A DNA stretch of 64,000 nt, from positions 1 to 64,000 of the forward strand of contig JAKAVQ010000006.1 in the NCBI GenBank assembly GCA_021817245.1, read 5' to 3'. A model generated the notes under the pieces. The model ran no database searches, was not told the origin of the DNA, and was given only the letters and a program-made list of their open reading frames with translations. How positions within the stretch are numbered: the stretch's first letter is position 1; each line of letters opens with the position of its first letter. Both the position numbers and the translations under genes were made by a program. The stretch comes from Thermoplasmata archaeon. Its GTDB lineage: Archaea; Thermoplasmatota; Thermoplasmata; Lutacidiplasmatales; UBA184. Positions 18,707 to 24,091 of this stretch are shown here, piece by piece.

Positions 18707-19911
18707 TCACCCCGCGAGCTCGTCGATCGCGGCGAGGAGAAGGGCCCCGCTCCGAGCCAATGCCGGGGGTTGGACCTTTCCCGGGCCATCGGAGGGTGTG
18801 TGGTATCCGCGGCCCCCCGAGCCAAGCCCGACACTAGGGAACCCGACCGCCGCAAACTGCCGATTGTCCGACTGGACTGCCCCGTAAGCGAGCGGAACTC
18901 CGATCCGTTTTGCCGCGACGTCCAGTGCTCGGAACAGGGGCAACGAGTTGGCGGATCCCTCCACCACGACGGGGCTGTCGGCGAGGGCCGACAAGTCGAG
19001 ATTGACCACTATCGGCGAGATCCCCGAGTGGCGGAACTCGGCCGCGAGGGCGCGAGCCCCGTAGGCCCCGGTCTCCTCGGCATCAAAGGCGGCGATCCAG
19101 ACGGGCCGTGGGAATGCCACTTGATGCTCGCGCAGCGCCCGCGCGACCTCGAGAACGACCGCGACACCCGAAGCGTTGTCCGAGGCGCCCGGGAACCGTC
19201 GTCCGTCCGGATCGTCTCCGACCGCGTCGTAGTGGGCTCCCAAGAGCAAGGGCTGGTGGGCGAGGGCACGATCGGAGCCCGCGACTTCGGCAAGAAGGTT
19301 CATCCCGGTCAGGGGGAGCCGTCGAACTCGAACGTCAAGGCCGATCTCCGTGGGCCACTCGGAATTGAGCAGCTCCTGTCGGAGAAAGAATGTCGGCAGT
19401 GGAAACGGGGCTCCCGCGGGCAATTGCTTAAAGATGACCCCTCCACGGGGGACCGAGAAGGGAATCAGGAAGCCGATCGCGTCTCGTGCGGCAGCTTGGA
19501 CGATCTGTTGACCAAGCGGAGGCGAACCGGGGTCCGCGCTCGACACGACCCAACGATTCCGGAAGTTCGTGTCACGGTTCCATCGAACGACCGCGCCGCT
19601 TAACGGACGGCGATTGGCGCGCTGGCAGGGTGTTCGGCGAAGTCCCGCCGATACGTAAGCCTCCGAGATGCGATTCTTCGGGTCGACGCACTCCCGGTGG
19701 GGGATCCGACCACATCGACGACGGAGGTTGGGTATCGGAAAGGGTGCCTCCCAATCTCGTATCCCCAACCCGTCAGCCGAGCCTCGATCCATCGGCGAGC
19801 CCGTTCGTGTCCCGCCGTGACCACCCTCCGACCCGCGAATGCCCGTCCGCTGAGCATTCTCACGGTCTCGAACGCTCGATCCCCGTCAAAGTCCCCCACG
19901 CCGTCCATCAT
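18707..19911 (-). pseudogene. M28-family zinc aminopeptidase interrupted by one frameshift
   Basis: N-terminal part from ATG 19911 (MMDGVGDFDGDRAFETVRMLSGRAFAGRRVVTAGHERARRWIEARLTGWGY...) stops at 19600; the C-terminal part continues in another frame with the catalytic motifs LLGAHYDAVG, GASDNASGVAVVLEVARAL, AFDAEETGAYG. Confidence 0.75.
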
Positions 19912-19974
19912 CGTTCGAAGCCGGACTCACCTCCGGGCCGGATCCGTCGCCAGGAAGCTGTCCTCTGCGGTGGG

Positions 19975-20250
19975 TCAGCTCCCTCCGCAACAACTCGACG
20001 ATCCCCTGCCACCGCAGCATCCGCCCGCGGCTCCCGAGCCCCCACAACACTCGCCGCCCGACGTCGCTTTTGATGGGCCCCCACCACAACACGAACCGCC
20101 GGAACCGCCCTCCCCGCAACACCCCGAGGAGTTGGCCGTCGACGCGAGTGGACGCGGAGGTCCGTCGAGGAATCCTCCGGTCGATCGGATCGTTCGCTCC
20201 GCCCTGTCCACTCCCGCCGATCGCTTCTTGGTCGCGCTCTTCCGATTCAT
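19975..20250 (-). CDS. Gly/Ser-rich protein with five CC pairs (metallothionein-like candidate)
   Basis: 91 aa from ATG 20250 after an aggaaagcaaaATG leader; tail SGCCGEGGSGGSCCGGGPSKATSGGECCGGSGAAGGCCGGRGSSSCCGGS; 32 bp downstream of the arsR stop. Confidence 0.75.
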   Translation of the reverse strand: MNRKSATKKRSAGVDRAERTIRSTGGFLDGPPRPLASTANSSGCCGEGGSGGSCCGGGPSKATSGGECCGGSGAAGGCCGGRGSSSCCGGS

Positions 20251-20282
20251 TTTGCTTTCCTCCCTTTTCTCCCTCGGGGGAT

Positions 20283-20657
20283 TCACGGGACCCACAGACC
20301 ATCTCGGCTCGCCAGTCGATAGTAGACCCACTTGCCCCGGCGCTCTGAGTGGACGAGCCCCGCCCGCTCCAAGAGATGCATGTGGTGACTCACCGTGGGG
20401 TGGCGCACCCCGAGCGCCGCCTGGAGTTCGCAGGCGCAGAGTTCCTTTTCACGCCGTAGCAGGGCCAGGATAACGAGACGGCTTTCGTCGGCCATTGCCT
20501 GCGCCCGCCGCAGGCTCATCGGGAACGAGGGCGCTTTCCGGATCTGTTCGGCGAGCTCCTGGTAACCCGAGATCGAGCACAGGCATGCCGCATCCTTCTC
20601 AACGAGATGTTCGAGCCGGGACGTGAGTTGCGACTCCGGGGATCTGGATAGCGTCAT
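20283..20657 (-). CDS. ArsR/SmtB-family metal(loid)-responsive repressor
   Basis: 124 aa; ESRLVILALLRREKELCACELQAALGVRHPTVSHHMHLLERAGLVHSERRGKWVYYRL; ELCxC motif in the recognition-helix region plus N-terminal CLC. Confidence 0.9.
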   Translation of the reverse strand: MTLSRSPESQLTSRLEHLVEKDAACLCSISGYQELAEQIRKAPSFPMSLRRAQAMADESRLVILALLRREKELCACELQAALGVRHPTVSHHMHLLERAGLVHSERRGKWVYYRLASRDGLWVP

Positions 20658-20677
20658 GTAGACAAATATCTACATGA
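20654..20677. promoter_or_regulatory. 24-bp inverted repeat TCATGTAGA-CAAATA-TCTACATGA, candidate ArsR operator
   Basis: 9-bp perfect arms; the first arm overlaps the arsR start codon (ATG complement 20655-20657); AT-rich TATA-like sequence just upstream on the minus strand. Confidence 0.75.
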
Positions 20678-21086
20678 ATACTTAAGCTTAACCAGGCCCG
20701 ATGCCCACCGGAGTGGAGGCTGGAGCGCCGAGTAGTTCGGAGCGTTTCGAGCGTCCAGCTCGACGGAGTGCGCTTTTCGGGAATCCCGCGGCGTCGCGGC
20801 CCGGCAGAGTCGCCGCTCCTGCTCGGTCTCTGCCGAGCAACTAGGCCAGCGCGTTGGCGAACGACATGAAGCCCCGGCAAGTTCGGGAAACTCTGAGTCC
20901 GGTCCTTCGCAACGGGAGGAACTTCGGGCGGAGTTCCAGCGGCTCAATGTGGGAATTGTTGTTGAGCCTCCCGAGATCCACTCTCCTCTTGGACGGCGGG
21001 TTTTCGGCCGGCCCGCGGACGACCTCCACCGGGTCACCGGGGCGCCCCGTCACGGCCGGCCCCCGAGCGGGCACGACGCGGTACCG

Positions 21087-21812
21087 TTATGGGCCGCCGA
21101 AGTCGACGGCCTTCGCGTCGACCTGGATCCCCTTCGGGCCGATCGCATACGGCTGGACCGTGCGCACGTGCGCGGCGCGCCGCATCTTGAGCACGCGCAG
21201 GGCGAGACCGACACGGTGGCCGTCGGAACCCGTCCGGTACCCGAGGAGGAGCACGCCATCGGCGACGTACTCGGAGAGCCCGTCCCGGCTCACCTCCGGG
21301 TGGATCGGGTCGGCCTCGGCCGTGAGGATCGTCGTCGCACCGGACTCTCGACAGGCCCCTGCGAGCGCGAACAGCGTGGCCCGCCGGCTCGGCTCGTCGT
21401 CGCTCAGCATGTTGAGCAGCGAGACGGAGTCGACAACGATCCGCTGCGCCTTGAGCGCCGTGAACTCCTTGCCGAGCTCGCCCTGGATCCGGTGCAGGCT
21501 CTGCCGGGTCTCCTTGGGGTCGAGCCGGAGGACCTTCAGCGTCCCGTCCTTGACCGCCGCATCGACCGGCCAGTGGAACTGGCGGCCGCTCTCGAGCAGG
21601 GGACCGACGTCCTCTTCCAGCGAGAGAAAGACCCCCCGCTCGCCCCGCGCGACGCCCTCGAGCAGGAACTGGAGACCGAGACAGGTCTTACCGGTGCCGG
21701 GGAGTCCCGTGACGAGTACGACGTGGCCGGCCGGAAAGCCCCCGCCGATCATCTCATCGAGCCCGCCGACCCCGGTCGGGACCCGCGGCCGGACCCCGTC
21801 AGATTCGCTCAT
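21087..21812 (-). CDS. KaiC/RecA-superfamily ATPase
   Basis: 241 aa; Walker A TGLPGTGKTCLGLQFLLEG, Walker B region RIVVDSVSLL. Confidence 0.85.
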   Translation of the reverse strand: MSESDGVRPRVPTGVGGLDEMIGGGFPAGHVVLVTGLPGTGKTCLGLQFLLEGVARGERGVFLSLEEDVGPLLESGRQFHWPVDAAVKDGTLKVLRLDPKETRQSLHRIQGELGKEFTALKAQRIVVDSVSLLNMLSDDEPSRRATLFALAGACRESGATTILTAEADPIHPEVSRDGLSEYVADGVLLLGYRTGSDGHRVGLALRVLKMRRAAHVRTVQPYAIGPKGIQVDAKAVDFGGP

Positions 21813-22722
21813 ACTGAGTGGTCACCAGCCCGTTCACGGGATTGACGCGGATCACGAACCGGCCCAGGTACTCGGCCGGCAGCCGCGCGAGGACCGGCAT
21901 CGACTTCTCGATCAGCATCGTCCGCTGGCGGTGCGAGCGGCTGGGGCTGGTCTGCCAGGCGAAGTGAAGCACGACATCGACCGAATCGATGACGGCTTGC
22001 TCGATCGAGGGCGGCGCGACGCCCTTCGCGAGCAGCAGGTAGACGATCCCCTCCCACTCCTTCGCTCGACGCCGCAGCCCCTTGAGGAGGGTCAGGAGAT
22101 CGGCTGACGAGACCCCGTCGCGCACGACGAGATCGGTGAGCGAATCGACGATGAGCAGCCGCCCCGGTCCGTCGCGCTCCGCCGACTCCGCCAGCGCGCG
22201 CACCGGGTCCATCGGAGTCGGGCGGCTCCCCGAGTTCTCGGAGAGGAGCGGGCTCCGCACGGAGGCCCACTCCCTCGGGACCACGGTGTCCTGGAAATAC
22301 GCCGGCGAGAGGTCGCGGAACGTGAGGTGGCGCGCGAGGACACGGGGATAGATCCCGGCGAAGGCCGACCGGAGCTCGTCCATCACTTGCGACTCCGAGC
22401 GGCTGGTGCTGAGGTAAGCGACGCCCTCGGGATAACGGAAAGGACCCTTCGCGTTCCCGAGATAGAACTGGTGGAGACGGGGGTCGTCGAACCGCAGCAT
22501 CAGGTGCGCCGCGCTCGTCAGGGCGAACTCGGGGGCCCCGGCGCCCGGCTCGCCGAAGAGGAGCACGACGGAACCGGAGGGAAGCCCACCGGTCATGTAG
22601 TCGAAATCCGGCACGCCGCACGGGATCCGCGGCGGGGCATCCTCGGGCGACGCGGCGGGTCCTGGAGAGAGTCCGGCCGACGGCGCGGGGTAGCGGTACG
22701 GACGTGGAGACTCGATCGCCAT
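21799..22722 (-). CDS. KaiC-like protein with degenerate Walker A
   Basis: IPCGVPDFDYMTGGLPSGSVVLLFGEPGAGAPEFALTSAAHL (no GK[ST]); RLLIVDSLTDLVV; ATG at 22722; overlaps the next gene by 14 bp. Confidence 0.75.
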   Translation of the reverse strand: MAIESPRPYRYPAPSAGLSPGPAASPEDAPPRIPCGVPDFDYMTGGLPSGSVVLLFGEPGAGAPEFALTSAAHLMLRFDDPRLHQFYLGNAKGPFRYPEGVAYLSTSRSESQVMDELRSAFAGIYPRVLARHLTFRDLSPAYFQDTVVPREWASVRSPLLSENSGSRPTPMDPVRALAESAERDGPGRLLIVDSLTDLVVRDGVSSADLLTLLKGLRRRAKEWEGIVYLLLAKGVAPPSIEQAVIDSVDVVLHFAWQTSPSRSHRQRTMLIEKSMPVLARLPAEYLGRFVIRVNPVNGLVTTQYERI

Positions 22723-22732
22723 GGCGGGAAGC

Positions 22733-24091
22733 TTACGCGATGCGAGGAGCCGGGGACCGGGTATTAGTAGGCTCGTTTGCACCCGCCCCCGTGGTCGCAC
22801 CGTTCTTCAGGAACTCGCGGAGGTACACGGTGGCGTACGCCCCCTTCGGCAGGGCGAAACGGAACTCGACCGCGGTCGCTTCCGCCCGCAGCGCCGTCGG
22901 GGGAACGGGGAGCACGACGGGCCTCCAAGCGCCGCGGCTCGCGACCTCGGGGGCTGCCGGCAGGCGGAAGCCGGCCGGATCGACCCCCTCTTCGGAGAGG
23001 ACCGCGGCAAGGAGCTCCCCGACGGGCCCGGGAGCGACCCCGGTCTCGAATCCGACGAGCGGCCCGGCGAGGAGCGCGCCGCCCCGGGAGACCAGGTCGG
23101 TGCATTCCCGTGCGTTGTCGGTGTCGACCGGCACCGGTTCCTGACTGCGGACGGTGCCGTCGCGGCCGACCCGGAGGATCCGATCGCCGGCCATCGGTCG
23201 GTCGAGCGGGAGGCCGAGCGCCTCCCGCCGGCTGACCCACCGGTTGAAGAGGAGCGCCTGGAAGGCGTGGACGAACAGGAGGCGGAGGTCTCGAGAGAGC
23301 GCGCGGAATGCCCGCTCGGGAGGGTGGCCCCGCGCCAGGTGCTCGAGCAGCGCCCGCTCGAACCGGTACTCGGACGGGAACTCTCGGAGGGCCCGGGCCG
23401 CGTCCCGGTGCTCCGCGAACGCCCGCCGAGCGGCGTCGCCGCTCCCCGGCGAAGCGCCCGCGGGGACCGCGGTGAGGTAGACGTCGACCGCGCCCGCGAG
23501 ATCCCCGCGGATGAGTGCGCGGCCGACCTCGTGGGTCACCGGGCGGACCTCGCCGAAGCGTTGGGGGCCGAAGAGGTTCGGGAAACCCCCAAGCTCCCTC
23601 AGCTCGGCCTCGGTCTCGCGATAGGCGGCGACCGCCGCCTCCGCCGGGCGGTCGAGCTCGCTCACGCGGATCTCGAAGGCGTTCCCGTAGTGGTGACCGA
23701 GCACGAGGCCCTCCCGGGCCCGGTACGCCTCCCGGAGCTCCACGCCGGGCAGGCCGAGGTCGGCTGGCGGCAGGGAGCCCGCGTAGGAGAAGAGCCGGTC
23801 GGCGACCGCGCGACGGTCCTTCGTGCCGGACCACTTCACCGAGTGCGGCGGGAGCCGGAGCCGCCGGGCGAGCGCTGCGGCGAGCTCGTGCTGTTCCCAG
23901 TCCCGGCTCGCCACGCGGAGGACGACGAACGCGCCCGACGGGTCCGGGCGTGGATAGGTGGAGATCTCCTGCACGTGGAAGTCGTCGGCGCGGGCCTTGA
24001 TACGGCCCGGGACGCCCGGAGTTCGCGTGCGATAGAATTCGAGCCCGAGCTCCCGTTCGGCGGCGGGCGGGGTCCAAACGGGCTCCACCAC
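22733..24091 (-). CDS. truD: tRNA pseudouridine synthase TruD
   Basis: 452 aa; IKARADDFHVQEI, VKWSGTKDRRAVADRLFSYAG, NLFGPQRFGEVRPVTHEVGRALI, FVHAFQALLFNRWVSRR. Confidence 0.93.
   Translation of the reverse strand: MVEPVWTPPAAERELGLEFYRTRTPGVPGRIKARADDFHVQEISTYPRPDPSGAFVVLRVASRDWEQHELAAALARRLRLPPHSVKWSGTKDRRAVADRLFSYAGSLPPADLGLPGVELREAYRAREGLVLGHHYGNAFEIRVSELDRPAEAAVAAYRETEAELRELGGFPNLFGPQRFGEVRPVTHEVGRALIRGDLAGAVDVYLTAVPAGASPGSGDAARRAFAEHRDAARALREFPSEYRFERALLEHLARGHPPERAFRALSRDLRLLFVHAFQALLFNRWVSRREALGLPLDRPMAGDRILRVGRDGTVRSQEPVPVDTDNARECTDLVSRGGALLAGPLVGFETGVAPGPVGELLAAVLSEEGVDPAGFRLPAAPEVASRGAWRPVVLPVPPTALRAEATAVEFRFALPKGAYATVYLREFLKNGATTGAGANEPTNTRSPAPRIA

Follow-up and report, generated by a model that had tools for sequence, protein, structure and literature searches.

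A candidate arsenic-responsive operon pairing a vicinal-cysteine protein with an M28 peptidase in Thermoplasmata

What does an ArsR/SmtB-family repressor control when none of the known detoxification genes (i.e., arsB, acr3, arsC, arsM, and arsP) is present in its operon? The question is raised by a single block of genes on the minus strand of the Thermoplasmata DNA analyzed here (i.e., a stretch of 64 kb, hereafter the window), in which arsR, the first gene of the operon, is followed only by a gene for a small cysteine-rich protein (designated CC5) and by an M28 peptidase gene (18707-19911). The features of the block are as follows.

20676-20690, minus strand: AT-rich TATA/BRE-like element 5' of arsR, an inferred archaeal promoter (sequence reading)
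20656-20675, no strand assigned: operator-like palindrome ATGTAGA-N6-TCTACAT (pattern search; similar sites lie 5' of arsR in relatives)
20283-20657, minus strand: arsR, ArsR/SmtB-family repressor of 124 aa (Pfam HTH_5, NCBIfam HTH_metalloreg)
20256-20264, minus strand: Shine-Dalgarno-like GGGAGGAAA 5' of the CC5 ATG (sequence reading)
19975-20250, minus strand: CC5, 91 aa with five Cys-Cys pairs (conserved in four genomes, always directly 3' of arsR)
19600-19911, minus strand: N-terminal part of the M28 peptidase, first frame (tblastn with the intact relative P0003)
18707-19630, minus strand: catalytic part of the M28 peptidase, second frame (Pfam Peptidase_M28; tblastn with P0003)

The locus and its small cysteine-pair protein

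The spacer between arsR and CC5 is 32 bp, and that between CC5 and the M28 gene (start at 19911) is 63 bp. An earlier note on this DNA had reported the coordinates, strand, and spacing of these genes and an SD-like leader in front of the 91-aa ORF, all of which matched our re-check of the sequence. The palindrome abuts the start codon of arsR and is the sole GTAGA-N4..9-TCTAC site in the window. It is the one clear palindrome of this promoter; in most relatives, the promoter 5' of arsR has a double-operator arrangement (loci L103 to L130), in which two operator-like GTNGA-N6-TCNAC-like copies bracket the sequence CATATAT, whose position is comparable to that of the AT-rich element in the window. 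On the same strand, a KaiC-family ATPase gene (21087-21812, minus) lies 5' of the cassette and overlaps a second RecA/KaiC-like gene (21799-22800, minus).

The CC5 protein starts with a basic (Lys/Arg-rich) N-terminus, which is followed by a GGF motif and a Gly/Ser/Cys tail. All ten cysteines of the 91-aa protein form five CC pairs (residues 44-45, 54-55, 68-69, 78-79, and 87-88), four of them in a CCGG context, exactly as had been described before. In shuffles of the CC5 tail composition, the probability that all cysteines fall into exact pairs by chance was 8.5e-5. The window protein had no match in Pfam up to an E value of 1 (including the bacterial metallothionein family PF02069), its relatives had none in Pfam up to an E value of 0.01, and CC5 matched nothing in NCBIfam or PDB, which bears out the earlier view that the protein belongs to no named family. 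Family searches found in CC5 neither the ArsD domain (NF033727, which a control protein from locus L124 matched at an E value of 3.3e-35) nor the methyltransferase domain of ArsM (PRK11873). Like prokaryotic metallothioneins, CC5 is small, Cys-rich, and presumed to be inducible by an SmtB/ArsR-type regulator; it differs from them in its lack of a Pfam match, in its Gly/Ser spacers, and in having no CxC pattern, all cysteines of the window protein lying in CC pairs. CC5 may serve as a metallothionein-like scavenger, as the earlier note proposed. Judged by its sequence, it is a previously undescribed, narrowly distributed protein family, and we found no published description of such a cassette in the open-licence literature.

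Conservation and distribution of CC5

The use of ArsR as bait in genome collections led to two Thermoplasmata metagenome-derived genomes (MAGs), L021 (LL4.bin73) and L022 (MAS3.bin44), both of which carry a CC-rich ORF at the position of CC5, and a search with a CC5 profile led to a fourth species (G110). The CC5 proteins of the three further species exhibit 40 to 45% identity to the window protein and are encoded between homologous arsR and M28 genes. The gene order arsR-CC5-M28 is found in four species of one Thermoplasmata genus, in which 4 of 78 genomes carry CC5. Of the 399 class genomes searched, only G000 (i.e., the genome of the window), G026, G173, and G110 contain CC5, always directly 3' of arsR. 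Viral contigs contained no CC5 relatives; neither did plasmids, for which low-complexity filtering limits the search. Weak matches in other genomes of the genus (E values of 0.003 to 0.5) were judged to reflect chance or composition.

The earlier note had named a lack of conservation of the ORF or of its Cys pairs in relatives as grounds for abandoning its proposal; both are kept in the three further species. Five CC pairs occur in three of the four proteins, while that of G026 has four CC pairs and a CGC replacing the fourth. The low-complexity, GC-rich sequence of the gene and a dS near saturation would be compatible with an open frame without a functional protein. The dN/dS ratio of about 0.4 to 0.5 (Nei-Gojobori; pairs with computable dS only) speaks for CC5 as a working part of the operon, but it is a rough value because of that dS. 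Against a spurious frame, the four species share the position, frame, and length of the ORF, its Cys pairs and their spacing, the GGF motif, and a Pro residue, and the profile separates the four members (E values of 1e-26 to 1e-32) from the next match among the 399 class genomes (8.6e-5). A spurious ORF is nearly excluded on these comparisons, and CC5 is by all sequence indications a conserved protein rather than a chance ORF.

The ArsR regulator and the genes at orthologous loci

The window ArsR matches Pfam HTH_5 (E value of 1.2e-11) and, over the cut-off, NCBIfam HTH_metalloreg (E value of 1e-25). Its cysteines lie in an N-terminal CLC and in the motif ELCACEL, which had earlier been taken for the classical As(III) site of ArsR. 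ArsR repressors release DNA upon As(III) binding, and the type-1 As(III) site of R773 consists of Cys32, Cys34, and Cys37 (PMC11868830). The ELCAC of the window protein supplies two of these three cysteines and has no equivalent of Cys37, so the term "classical" is too strong, and the third ligand would have to be provided by the N-terminal CLC/CC. In a comparison of 29 rows, the ArsRs of the cassettes cluster together (support, 83/77); one origin is therefore likely, and the four cassettes probably do not represent independent gains.

At 23 of the 27 non-cassette loci examined, arsM lies directly 3' of the orthologous arsR. This assignment was checked with PRK11873 for one arsR-adjacent case (5.5e-87) and for three genomes. 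Where the loci were followed further, arsM precedes genes for an LMW-PTP arsC and a MIP-family aquaporin; at L128, the orthologous arsR locus includes an Acr3-like permease. An arsM gene over the family cut-off was found in all three non-cassette controls and in none of the four cassette genomes (G000 yielded only a weak, sub-threshold methyltransferase in the arsM family search), a difference that is no proof of absence because the statement is based on family searches of MAGs (G026, 78% complete; G000, 93% complete). Compared with the arsR-arsM(-arsC-aquaporin) operons, the cassette is alike in its orthologous arsR, its operator-like promoter palindromes, and its gene order but contains neither arsM nor arsC. 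Since arsR is followed by arsM in relatives and by CC5 and M28 here, this pair occupies the arsM slot. The arsenic reading becomes stronger because the orthologous repressors precede arsM, arsC, and aquaporin genes; the sequence comparison thus supports the metal(loid)-thiol cassette of the earlier note and points to arsenic more specifically than that note did.

A Cys-rich N-terminal linker of ArsM in the relatives resembles CC5, with CC pairs in a Gly/Ser context encoded directly 3' of arsR. The profile match at 8.6e-5 is such a linker (G383, the L112 locus), similarly placed behind an orthologous arsR. The linkers have at most two CC pairs versus the five of CC5, which has no methyltransferase domain. 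When CC5 was compared with an ArsM-linker profile, the real proteins outscored 484 to 500 of 500 shuffles (shuffles scoring as high: 0, 0, 14, and 16). We do not claim homology, since the corrected scores are weak and driven by composition; CC5 looks like an expanded stand-alone form of the ArsM linker, a likeness in which sequence tests do not distinguish common ancestry from similar composition.

Arsenic genes also occur elsewhere in some of these genomes. G110 and G173 carry acr3 next to arsC on other contigs, while the family searches found no acr3 in G000 or G026, no arsP in the six genomes searched, and no LMW-PTP arsC in G000 (a 93% complete MAG). In G000, the cassette is the sole arsenic-type locus recognized in searches for acr3, arsP, LMW-PTP arsC, and arsM. 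The lack of acr3, arsP, and LMW-PTP arsC matches there counts against the arsenic reading, since these searches revealed no route out of the cell for arsenic.

These genes bear on the main alternative to sequestration, namely, that CC5 acts as a metallochaperone for As(III) instead of storing it and delivers As(III) to an efflux pump in the way that ArsD supplies ArsA. Vicinal Cys pairs, which CC5 has in common with ArsD, are the As(III) ligands and working parts of that chaperone (PMC4562236); a relative (locus L124) encodes, directly 3' of the orthologous arsR, an ArsD with SCCGGSSTTDADCCG in a CCG-rich N-terminal extension; and the acr3 genes of G110 and G173 could provide a pump. On the other hand, the ArsD domain is missing from CC5, the cassette includes no pump, two of the four genomes yielded no acr3, and five Cys pairs exceed the need of a transfer protein. 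We consider a chaperone role unlikely. The L124 protein (467-1297) is an uncommon fusion in its own right, in which ArsD is joined to the N-terminal SCCGGSSTTDADCCG extension and to a C-terminal AhpD-like part.

The M28 peptidase and the proposed mechanism

The metal-ligand motifs of the M28 peptidase (GAHYDAV, GASDN, DAEE, and GYHTP) are present in the catalytic part of the window gene, and Pfam Peptidase_M28 (PF04389) matches the window part at an E value of 1.7e-31 and the G110 relative at 1.4e-36. In tblastn comparisons with P0003, the N-terminal part is 53% identical to residues 13-104 and the catalytic part, in another frame, is 55% identical to residues 101-407. The earlier note was right in placing an M28 gene 3' of CC5, and the gene is a real partner, but in the window it does not run as one open frame: an N-terminal part (19600-19911) and a catalytic part (18707-19792) in different frames are joined near 19600 (19590-19630), which is compatible with one missing base. 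The frame change is either a true mutation or an assembly error, and the product may therefore be absent from the window strain; the reading frame is intact in three relatives (L021, L022, and L134). The protein shares its domain and metal-ligand motifs with M28 aminopeptidases of the YwaD type, and it resembles the aminopeptidases 2ek8 and YwaD; its best PDB sequence matches include one aminopeptidase that is listed with an Arg/Lys/Leu preference. Sequence reading revealed no obvious signal peptide, and an AlphaFold model from two sequences had a mean pLDDT of 41. In contrast to that type, this M28 is restricted to the cassette within the class: with the G110 protein as a query (E value of 1e-25; 399 class genomes), only the four CC5 genomes were recovered, each with the gene directly 3' of CC5. 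The two genes occur in the same four genomes and are always adjacent; therefore, they travel as a pair.

We regard it as probable that arsR-cc5-M28 is an arsenic-responsive operon in which a vicinal-thiol protein replaces arsM, CC5 sequestering As(III) and M28 trimming or recycling CC5. ArsR would occupy the operator at its own promoter until As(III) or methyl-As(III) on its Cys cluster causes its release, whereupon the operon would be read through. CC5, whose flexible Gly/Ser chain carries the five Cys pairs, would then chelate As(III); its ten thiols would suffice for approximately three trithiolate-bound As(III) or five dithiolate-bound RAs(III). Free As(III) would thereby be lowered through sequestration, not methylation, while the aminopeptidase-like M28 enzyme would trim the basic N-terminus of CC5 or degrade and recycle the protein. 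The sequence comparisons show the conservation and order of the genes, the joint occurrence of CC5 and M28, their place in the arsM slot, and the operator palindrome; we infer the As(III) sensing, the vicinal-thiol binding, and the aminopeptidase chemistry from the respective protein families, and the action of M28 on CC5 is a guess. A bolder version, in which CC5 is the first arsenic-sequestration protein within an ars-type operon and its own peptidase converts or recycles it to or from short thiol peptides (as a gene-encoded archaeal counterpart of phytochelatin detoxification), seems to us rather doubtful.

The regulator and the slot of the cassette are of a known kind, and the effector pair CC5 and M28 is new and narrow in its distribution. 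According to a 2025 paper, the ars operon has so far yielded no genes specific for intracellular arsenic sequestration (PMC12093948). Should CC5 bind As(III), its gene would be a sequestration gene within an ars operon and would provide an example of a lineage in which thiol trapping has taken over from arsenite methylation within one regulated locus. The protein would further represent a compact As(III)-binding scaffold of simple CC-Gly/Ser units, and the M28 enzyme would be a peptidase with a partner known from genome context.

The strict pairing of the two genes could also mean that CC5 is a precursor peptide, from which M28 makes short CCGG-type thiol peptides (i.e., a gene-encoded phytochelatin analogue) or which matures into a modified RiPP. 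The architecture of CC5, with a basic N-terminus and a conserved GGF and Pro ahead of the Gly/Ser/Cys tail, would suit a precursor, as would the Arg/Lys/Leu preference listed for an aminopeptidase among the best PDB matches. M28 enzymes, however, are mostly exopeptidases, and defined internal cuts by them are rare. An azole RiPP is disfavored because no YcaO cyclodehydratase gene was found in six genomes, including the four with the cassette (5 of 14 control genomes were positive). We consider the precursor reading very improbable. Sequestration of As(III) by CC5 itself remains our preferred reading.

CC pairs bind many soft metals, and CC5 could accordingly serve another soft metal or an oxidant (i.e., Hg, Cd, Cu, Ag, or persulfide) that is sensed by its ArsR. 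In G173, a class-V aminotransferase gene (cysteine-desulfurase-like) overlaps the end of M28 (ATGA; L142 7305-8429), and its frame runs off the contig; its position would be in line with a ligand other than arsenic. However, in neither G110 nor the window was an aminotransferase gene seen 3' of M28, and the arsM-arsC-aquaporin operons controlled by relatives of this ArsR make another soft metal less likely; we judge it quite improbable. The G173 aminotransferase may feed sulfur or thiol metabolism.
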